Below are positions 19,070 through 21,249 of a DNA stretch of 64,000 nucleotides, piece after piece. The first letter of the stretch is position 1, and the number at the start of each line of letters is the position of its first letter. This stretch comes from Rhizobium sp. SG_E_25_P2 (GTDB lineage Bacteria > Pseudomonadota > Alphaproteobacteria > Rhizobiales > Rhizobiaceae): positions 1-64,000 of the forward strand of contig NZ_JARXVM010000022.1 of the NCBI RefSeq assembly GCF_029892285.1. The letters run 5' to 3'. Position numbers and translations under genes: made by a program. The notes below the pieces were generated by a model, which saw only the letters and a program-made list of their open reading frames with translations, had not been told where the DNA came from and did no database searches.

Positions 19070-19798
19070 ATGATTCTTTTCCCGGCTATCGATCTCAAGG
19101 ACGGTCAATGCGTGCGCCTGAAGCTCGGCGACATGGAGCAGGCCACCGTCTATAATCCCGACCCGGCCGCCCAGGCCCGCGCCTTCGAAGACCAGGGATT
19201 CGAATGGCTGCATGTGGTCGATCTCAATGGCGCCTTCGCCGGCGAAAGCGTCAATGGCGCAGCCGTCGAGGCGATCCTGAAGGCGACGAAGAATCCGGTG
19301 CAGCTCGGCGGCGGCATCCGCACGCTCGCCCATATCGAAGCCTGGCTTGCGAAAGGGCTCTCCCGCGTCATCCTCGGCACCATCGCCGTGCGCGATCCGG
19401 CGCTGGTCAAGGAAGCCTGCCAGCTCTTTCCCGGCAAGGTCGCCGTCGGCATCGACGCCAAGGGCGGCAAGGTCGCCGTCGAAGGCTGGGCCGAGGCCTC
19501 CGAACTCGGCGTGATCGAACTCGCTGAGCGCTTCGAAGGCGCGGGCGTGGCGGCGATCATCTATACCGACATCGACCGCGACGGCATTCTCGCCGGCATC
19601 AATTGGGCCTCGACGCTGGAACTGGCCCGCGCCGTCTCCATCCCGGTCATCGCCTCGGGAGGCCTCGCCTCGCTCGACGACATCAGGCGGTTGGCCCTAC
19701 CGGACGCCGCCATTCTCGAAGGCGCGATCTCCGGCCGGGCGCTTTATGACGGCCGGATCGATCCGGCGGCGGCGCTGGAGATTTTGAGTAAGGCGTAA
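19070..19798 (+). CDS. hisA: HisA (ProFAR isomerase)
   Basis: A 242-residue (beta/alpha)8 barrel enzyme, the phosphoribosylformimino-AICAR ribotide isomerase of histidine synthesis. N-terminal [14 protein letters not shown] has catalytic Asp8; LGGGIRT and the phosphate-binding [12 protein letters not shown] follow. One base separates it from hisH. Unlike the usual arrangement, hisF does not follow directly: 668 bases including a decayed gene intervene. Confidence 0.96.
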
Positions 19799-19861
19799 GG
19801 CGACATAAAAAATCCAACGAAACGAATCACTTGCGGGGGCTTGAGTTACCACATTGATTCG

Positions 19862-20417
19862 TCAGTGGATTTTCTCCCAAACAAGTTCTATATATAAGGA
19901 CATGGATTGGGGGTTCCCGGTCGGCGTCTGGCCTCGGCATTGTCCGGGGCCTTTCGTTTTCATATCTCGGACAGCACGCCGCTTCTCAATCGCCTGACGT
20001 CCTTGTGCTTGTGAATTTTATCTCGAATGGTGTCGAAAGACCGATTTGGCTGAAAGGGGCGCAAATAGTGCATTCCTATCGGTCGTGCGGTTAAATCAGC
20101 GAGTTGCATTCCTGTCGAATTCGATTTCTTATTTGCAAATCTAATTTGAAATCCGGGAAGCGCTCACGCAGCGCCCTATCCGACAAGAGAACGAAATCAC
20201 CTGTCTGCTTGCGGATTTCTCGCTCATGCAGGACGACCATATCGTGCCCGAAATACCGGAACTTCAACTGCTGGAAGGCCGGCACAACCTTTCGGCAATA
20301 GTCGGGAATTCGAAACCCACATATGGAAAGCACGAAAATCGGGAAACCCCGATCAACCGTCGTCAGCGAATGGTCGCCGCTTTCATCCGCATAAAAAATA
20401 TACTCGCCATTTTCCAT
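19862..20417 (-). pseudogene. Decayed DUF3800 family gene inside the his operon
   Basis: The minus strand encodes a DUF3800 N-terminus (YIFYADESGDHSLTTVD, later VVLHEREIRKQTGDF) that stops at 20091. Two bases out of frame, codons then give the family C-terminal stretch MQLADLTARPIGMHYLRPFQ ending at a stop at 19960. A further frame carries KGPGQCRGQTPTGNPQS, a typical DUF3800 tail, ending at 19862. The middle of the usual 250-residue domain is missing, so the gene has an internal deletion and at least two frameshifts. Intact members are often linked to mobile or defence DNA. The region is lower in GC than the his genes. The start near 20417 (MENGEY) is uncertain. Confidence 0.75.
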
Positions 20418-20466
20418 TCGAGTGCGTATGAACCCCTCAGCTAGCGCAACCATATGAGGATGTCGG

Positions 20467-21249
20467 GTGACTCTCAAGGCTCGTGTCATTCCCTGTCTCG
20501 ACGTCAAGGACGGCCGTGTCGTCAAGGGCGTGTCCTTTGTCGATCTCATCGACGCCGGCGATCCGGTCGAGGCGGCGATCGCCTATGACGCGGCGGGCGC
20601 CGACGAACTCTGCTTCCTCGACATCACCGCCTCTTCGGACAATCGCGATACGATTTTCGACGTGGTGGCGCGCACCTCCGATCACTGCTTCATGCCGGTA
20701 ACGGTGGGCGGCGGCGTCCGCGCGCTCTCCGACATCCGCAAGCTGCTGCTTTGCGGCGCTGACAAGGTGTCGATCAATTCGGCGGCGGTGAAGACGCCCG
20801 ACTTCGTGGCTGAGGCCGCCGACAAATTTGGCGAGCAGTGCATCGTCGTCTCGCTCGATTGCAAGAAGGTCTCCGGCGAAGGCGAGGCCGACCGCTGGGA
20901 AATTTTCACCCATGGCGGCCGCAACCCGACCGGCATCGACGCGCTGGAATTCGCCACCGCCATGGTCAAGCGCGGCGCCGGCGAATTGCTGGTGACCTCG
21001 ATGGACCAGGACGGCCGCAAGACCGGCTATGACATCGCGCTGACCCGCGCCATTGCCGATAGCGTGCATGTGCCGGTGATCGCGTCTGGCGGGGTCGGCA
21101 CGCTCGATCATCTGGTCGAAGGGGTGCGCGACGGGCATGCCACCGCCGTGCTGGCCGCCTCGATCTTTCATTTCGGCACCTATACGGTCGGCGAAGCCAA
21201 GCGTTACATGGCCGAACGCGGCGTGCCGATGCGGCTCGATCGCGCCTGA
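20467..21249 (+). CDS. hisF: Imidazole glycerol phosphate synthase subunit HisF
   Basis: A 260-residue cyclase subunit. [18 protein letters not shown] carries catalytic Asp12, with TVGGGVRAL and [13 protein letters not shown] as phosphate-binding loops. The start is a GTG at 20467 with GAGGA at 6-base spacing. The signal lies close to the 5' part of the antisense DUF3800 remnant, so the insertion preserved or rebuilt the hisF start region. Transcription may come through from hisA or from a promoter inside the insert. Confidence 0.96.

Follow-up and report, generated by a model that had tools for sequence, protein, structure and literature searches.

The interval between hisA and hisF in the window (the whole stretch of 64,000 nucleotides that was analysed, from Rhizobium sp. 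SG_E_25_P2) is in our judgement likely to be the remnant of a module in which an RNA controls a nuclease of RNase H fold, probably with an anti-phage role, and which has here lost its protein and retained its RNA. The proposal draws on a covarying RNA structure, promoter-like hexamers, linkage of the RNA to DUF3800 genes, a single clade of his-located copies, and a broken protein gene beside a kept RNA, all of them read from the sequences compared. Under this scheme a module of two parts would have entered the hisA-hisF gap on a single occasion, long ago, in an ancestor of the Hyphomicrobiales. One part would be a gene for an RNase H-fold DUF3800 nuclease, and the other, tail-to-tail with it, a gene of about 64 nt for a small RNA, equipped with a promoter and a terminator of its own. 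The RNA would be made and would bind the nuclease, either holding it inactive or serving as its obligatory cofactor, and the pair, partnered by restriction systems or prophage repressors, would guard against phages. The copy in the window, being without the protein, should no longer have the activity of the module. The features are listed in Table 1.

Table 1. Positions of the features in and around the hisA-hisF interval of the window
Feature	Position	Strand	Description	Evidence
hisA	19070..19798	+	left neighbour of insertion	ORF of 242 aa
Promoter-like hexamers of RNA gene	19866..19894	+	TGGATT (19866-19871), 17 nt, TATATA (19889-19894)	7/12 consensus matches
Small-RNA gene, 64 nt, predicted	19900..19963	+		covariance model 69.6 bits; fold; covariation
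RNA hairpin 1	19905-19911 with 19916-19922	+	7-bp hairpin	predicted fold
RNA basal helix	19923-19926 with 19955-19958	+	encloses terminator hairpin	
Terminator hairpin	19930-19937 with 19944-19951	+	terminator-like site, then TTTCGTTTTC	
C-terminal DUF3800 piece	19960..20156	-	shifted frame, stop TGA 19962-19960	residues 182-230, 55% identity to intact relative
N-terminal DUF3800 piece	20157..20417	-	ATG at 20417	PF12686; residues 2-89, 60% identity to intact relative
Promoter-like site upstream of DUF3800	20449..20477	-	TTGAGA-17-TATGGT, overlaps hisF start	9/12 matches (weak, because 0.6 such sites are expected in shuffles)
hisF	20467..21249	+	GTG start, right neighbour of insertion	ORF of 260 aa

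The preliminary description of this DNA reported a lower-GC insert carrying a decayed DUF3800 gene on the opposite strand, and in this it is borne out. The interval comprises 668 bases between the hisA stop (19798) and the hisF GTG (20467), with a GC content of 0.497 against 0.658 for hisA, 0.649 for hisF and 0.626 for the window. The N-terminal piece (20091-20417) scores 27.6 bits with PF12686, for which the Pfam gathering cut-off is 21; three intact relatives score 52.1, 59.5 and 58.4 bits. The C-terminal piece lies in a different frame, as reported. The missing middle was seen on alignment with G002, a species of the window's genus that has the same DUF3800 gene at the same place: 280 nt, not a multiple of three, are absent at about 20157, and a short repeat, AGCGCT, can be seen on either edge of the gap. 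The reading frame of the window copy is thus interrupted by a deletion and a frame change. The G002 copy has a one-nucleotide gap near its front, so that each of the two copies seen in the genus is broken, and by a lesion of its own.

What had been taken for a protein tail in a third frame is instead the predicted RNA gene at 19900-19963, a conserved element that does not code for protein and is convergent (tail-to-tail) with the DUF3800 gene. On sequence comparison this gene is the most conserved part of the interval, and it was overlooked earlier. Between the window and G002 the RNA is identical at 58 of 60 nt and the broken coding pieces at 373 of 451 (Fisher p = 0.004), with identity in hisF and hisA at about 91-93%. 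The element beside other DUF3800 genes has DNA identity of 78-97% where the proteins share about 40-67%. As judged from these alignments the interval has lost its protein and kept its RNA sequence. The predicted fold of the window RNA has an energy of -28.9 kcal/mol (z -3.24).

To model the structure, 47 elements were aligned (that of the window and 46 of the 64 extracted), and the resulting covariance model of 66 positions, R1, has one helix extended by hand; 16 of 80 genome loci were missed by the extraction pattern and yet found by the model. In a wider set of 82 distinct sequences, which includes those used to build R1, 97.8% of cells are paired and 13 of 19 pairs have double changes, and none of 500 shuffles reaches the observed value on any of the five measures. 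An independent set (48 loci submitted, 44 distinct sequences, none of them in the R1 alignment) was drawn from viral contigs, phages, plasmids and RNA-first searches, two of its members, L194 and L197, being counted in the wider set also. Here 96.8% of cells are paired, 12 pairs have double changes, and doubly changed cells number 103 against a shuffled mean of 29; the observed value is reached by 0 of 500 shuffles on four measures and, for the number of pair types, by 24 of 500. R1 guided the fitting of both alignments, so that pair counts lean toward the model, and the cut-offs of 1e-8 and 1e-6 used for those counts excluded weak matches. Every covariation measure drops when the pairing partners are slid. 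The predicted RNA structure covaries strongly, including in sequences from outside the model.

Sigma-70-like hexamers (at least 8/12 matches, at the expected distance) precede 71 of 89 RNA loci; control windows reach that level in 18 of 356 cases and shuffles in 9.6%. For the independent set the counts are 29 of 47 loci and 12 of 188 controls. Those of the window are weaker than in most relatives, with 7/12 matches, and G002 has 8/12. These observations bear on a simple alternative, in which the DUF3800 gene is an ordinary pseudogene and the element a conserved terminator that does nothing more than end transcription between convergent genes. Such an account would fit the broken protein gene and the terminator-like hairpin at the end of the element. 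However neither hairpin 1 nor the basal helix should be needed to end transcription, and both have been conserved through compensatory changes; the promoter-like hexamers are conserved too, and the element is recognised in Pseudomonadota loci and in five metagenome-assembled genomes labelled as other phyla. We regard this alternative as quite improbable.

The RNA and DUF3800 are found together from whichever side one starts. Among the best 80 of 468 relatives of the protein, the RNA lies beside DUF3800 in 80 of 80 genome loci, and in the sample from the window's family it accompanies 14 of 14 closer relatives, which partly overlap the 80 (L052, for example, is L104). The protein gene is open over at least 205 codons back from the match end in at least 74 of the 80. 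By label 74 of the loci are Pseudomonadota and five are metagenome-assembled genomes assigned to Gemmatimonadota, Myxococcota, Planctomycetota or Actinomycetota, with the element in each. In one locus, L157, the RNA is 2 kb from DUF3800, with an ORF of 568 aa between them (judged on inspection alone to be a transposase). The RNA is present in 69 of 71 viral loci, a set with many near-copies, three of the matches being weak (33.6, 28.4 and 28.4 bits), and in the remaining two the contig ends within the protein. Three of four phage records were examined and two have the RNA, Pseudomonas phage JBD68 (55.6 bits) and Paracoccus phage Pkon1 (31.3 bits), as have both plasmids examined from 49 plasmid records, one of Methylorubrum and one of Paraburkholderia. 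The association is with close relatives: none of five distant DUF3800 genes (L067-L071) has the RNA beside it, nor has the distant DUF3800 of a Latilactobacillus phage. A blastn search of E. coli genomes with one Xenorhabdus query of 851 bases gave no match.

Starting from the RNA, 15 of 17 matches of at least 50 bits in 294 family genomes adjoin DUF3800 (the broken copy of the window being counted), and in 200 phylum genomes all three matches other than the window's own do so. One candidate for an RNA without DUF3800, L290, was rejected when a different DUF3800 subfamily was recognised there (L290:754-1413), behind a type I specificity (HsdS-type) gene and with the same RNA; the RNA is thus not tied to a single protein subfamily. 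Two others, L194 and L197 of genus g94, are solo RNAs with no DUF3800 match within about 1.5 kb on each side, and that of L194 adjoins a dUTPase gene. The RNA is therefore seen without an intact DUF3800 gene in the window, G002, L194 and L197, and in the genome and viral loci each close DUF3800 gene had the RNA with it wherever the sequence permitted the test. This asymmetry favours the protein as the effector, and the pairing of close DUF3800 genes with a fixed RNA that has no variable guide suggests an inhibitor or a cofactor.

The roles could in principle be reversed, with the RNA as the toxic part and DUF3800 as an RNase that removes it. In the part of PMC7811196 that bears on this, an accessory DUF3800 gene of Legionella pneumophila scored as essential, though the subfamily may differ, and the weakened -35 boxes of the window and G002, the copies with broken proteins, could be a means of silencing a toxic RNA. 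The same asymmetry speaks against it, as the RNA persists in all four loci without intact protein and close DUF3800 genes were not found without RNA. We think this reversal very improbable.

The predicted fold of DUF3800 is RNase H-like (pLDDT 88), the best PDB match being RNase HII 1eke with an E-value of 6.5e-4 and a TM-score of only 0.39. Many transposases also have an RNase H-like fold. It could thus be asked if DUF3800 is a mobility enzyme and the element its DNA site (an element end, recombination site or bidirectional terminator), with no RNA acting at all. This would be in keeping with the occurrence of the pair at many different places, including plasmids and phages, and with the finding that the opposite strand of the element also folds better than its shuffles (-16.8, z -1.90, in the window; -27, z -4.54, in L137). 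However in both loci compared it is the promoter strand that folds better (-38.7 in L137), and two U-G pairs of the hairpin 1 consensus would be mismatches on the other strand. The conserved promoter-like hexamers upstream of the element also speak against such a scheme, the window's genome has only one copy of the RNA at E 0.001, and the his copies form a single clade, unlike a repeatedly targeted site. On balance a DNA site is an unlikely explanation. We prefer the reading as an RNA acting with a nuclease, and DUF3800 is described as an RNase H-fold protein linked to putative non-coding RNAs and to some CRISPR loci in passages of PMC10910872 and PMC12669027.

As regards the history of the insertion, 17 of the 80 genome loci are his-located and all are from Hyphomicrobiales (13 with hisA and hisF, three with hisF only and one with hisA only, at a contig edge), DUF3800 adjoining hisF or hisA in five named families of the order. 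In a tree of 86 DUF3800 proteins, made by a quick method with SH-aLRT support only, the 19 his-located rows (these 17 loci, the window and G002) form one clade with support 100, so that a single change accounts for the location. This argues for one old insertion in Hyphomicrobiales rather than a recent acquisition. The simplest reading of the tree would be one old insertion with later losses, or movement together with the surrounding his genes. Of seven other genomes of the genus compared with the hisA-hisF DNA, six matched in the his genes but not in the DUF3800 part and one had no match. No hisA or hisF gene at 50% identity or more was found in the available stretch of 63 of the 80 genome loci, and the idea that the element is a conserved functional part of the his operon was dropped: the RNA follows DUF3800, not his. 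Since the his-operon copies range from intact to broken, they form a natural series for tracing the RNA in the absence of its protein.

Away from his, restriction-type genes are frequent neighbours. The counts exclude the 17 his-located loci and L145, L147 and L157, and neighbouring ORFs were called by a simple length rule. A restriction-type gene touches 26 of 60 chromosomal modules on one side or the other, a figure that stands without a random-gene background. The nearest upstream ORF in the 60 modules is HsdS-like in 15, gyrB in five and a DNA methylase of the N6_N4 family in two; on the downstream side the closest ORF is HsdR/helicase-like in 12 of 59 modules and HsdM-like in five. Five loci (L143, L151, L164, L165 and L176) have an HsdS-like gene before the module and an HsdR-like gene after it, an arrangement not seen at his. 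The modules preceded by gyrB (L129, L130, L133, L139 and L172) have betaproteobacterial labels, and three were Pfam-checked; gyrB is another recurrent core-gene location of the module.

In phages the neighbours are of another kind. From 36 of the 71 viral loci, picked by eye, and two phage records, 32 remained after filtering at 95% identity, and the scan of downstream proteins covered 65 of 92. Upstream of 31 distinct phage modules, 14 of 61 genes have the S24 domain of CI-type repressors. In JBD68 it is gp44, beside the DUF3800 gene, that has the S24 domain, and in Pkon1 a CI-like gene lies two genes before DUF3800. Restriction loci and prophage repressor regions suggest defence; counting against it are his, gyrB and the other core-gene settings, which are not defence loci. 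Models of PADLOC, NCBIfam and PHROG match none of the three members tested. More broadly we suggest, as a possibility that we hold with rather less confidence than doubt, an unnamed and widespread family of modules acting against phages, where a DUF3800 nuclease of RNase H fold is controlled, and in some lineages outlived, by a fixed small RNA with two hairpins. Such modules would travel as single-gene cargo of prophages, plasmids, restriction loci and core-gene gaps, and if they are defence modules they would add an RNA-controlled nuclease to the systems embedded in restriction loci and prophages.

DUF3800-linked RNA motifs are already known, reportedly from Weinberg et al. 2017, and the RNA described here is a new variant. 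Rfam includes DUF3800-I (RF02969) and DUF3800-IX (RF02968), given as DUF3800-associated RNA motifs in the relevant part of PMC11701678. They resemble our RNA in being structured non-coding RNAs adjoining DUF3800 genes, as ours does in all 80 genome loci and 69 of the 71 viral loci. The differences are that ours matches no DUF3800-* covariance model, that its model has 66 positions and that of DUF3800-I 115, and that it has promoter-like hexamers and a terminator of its own. The Rfam DUF3800 models gave no match when the window region was searched up to E 1, sets of 13 and 8 relatives up to E 5, or 17 loci at gathering score, and in those 17 loci the element scored below gathering for every Rfam 15 family. 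A search of 200 phylum genomes with the DUF3800-I model also gave no match but was uninformative, as its controls were silent too. The passages of the DUF3800 literature consulted contain no description of this RNA, and we do not claim that it is absent from print. An RNA found from Alphaproteobacteria to phages and matching no Rfam 15 family gives DUF3800 a concrete and testable partner.

Searching the window region to E 1 and 21 relatives to E 5, we found at the element only weak matches to BjrC68 and RNA-OUT, the latter one match of 24.5 bits in L121. BjrC68 (RF02353) matches the element in 4 of 13 loci with 21.7-24.1 bits, its gathering score being 39. Identity with the BjrC68 sRNA was rejected, as 24.1 bits is the most that the element attains and the true BjrC68 sequence differs; 30 true BjrC68 loci were also checked and have no DUF3800 match. 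The window's genome has a single BjrC68 match up to E 0.01, at another place. The weak hits at the element seem to reflect a generic resemblance between terminators.

Among known systems, type III toxin-antitoxin pairs such as ToxIN combine a small structured RNA with an RNase-like protein gene, as does the DUF3800 module. By definition the RNA of a type III system is a repeat array that precedes the toxin gene and shares its strand. The RNA described here is instead downstream of DUF3800 on the opposite strand, in convergent orientation, and gives one strong match per locus, which sets it outside that type. The closest functional analogy may be with PrrC of EcoprrI, an anticodon nuclease embedded in a type I restriction operon that keeps it silent, as set out in the parts of PMC3874165 and PMC2610378 concerned with it. 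The likeness in location applies to part of the DUF3800 family, an HsdS-like gene preceding the module in 15 of 60 cases and an HsdR/helicase-like gene coming after it in 12 of 59. Unlike PrrC, DUF3800 has a predicted RNase H-like fold and comes with an RNA, and more than half of the modules touch no restriction gene. The DUF3800 accessory proteins of CRISPR-Cas V-A2 and VI-F, as they appear in sections of PMC10910872 and PMC12669027, are likewise RNase H-fold proteins beside an RNA-based system, whereas the module described here has a single fixed RNA with no variable guide.

The statement that hisA and hisF are normally adjacent holds for about half of the genomes: in 42 sampled genomes with both genes on a single contig, the window's own included, the gap exceeds 100 bp in 22 (L033, L034, L043, L046, L048, L050 and L051 are examples). 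The other contents of the gap include genes for RecQ and for arginase-family, Uma2 and alpha/beta-hydrolase proteins, and it is a recurrent place of insertion. Contents vary between species of one genus, with RecQ by Pfam in G003 and DUF3800 in G000 and G002; G005 and G008 have similar long ORFs, as judged by eye, and G004 has a small protein with no Pfam match. On the question of hisF transcription, a simple scan of 19750-20550 gave no sigma-70-like promoter on the + strand, and the predicted terminator of the RNA sits across the path from hisA to hisF, so read-through should be hindered. Between the RNA promoter and the end of hisA there is a AAGTGATTC-like motif on the minus strand (19824-19832), which is also seen in several his-located relatives and could be the mark of an old insertion edge. 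In three other loci (L038:506-550, L039:1470-1520 and L045:1050-1091) an extra copy of the first 14-17 hisF codons lies just upstream of the real hisF.
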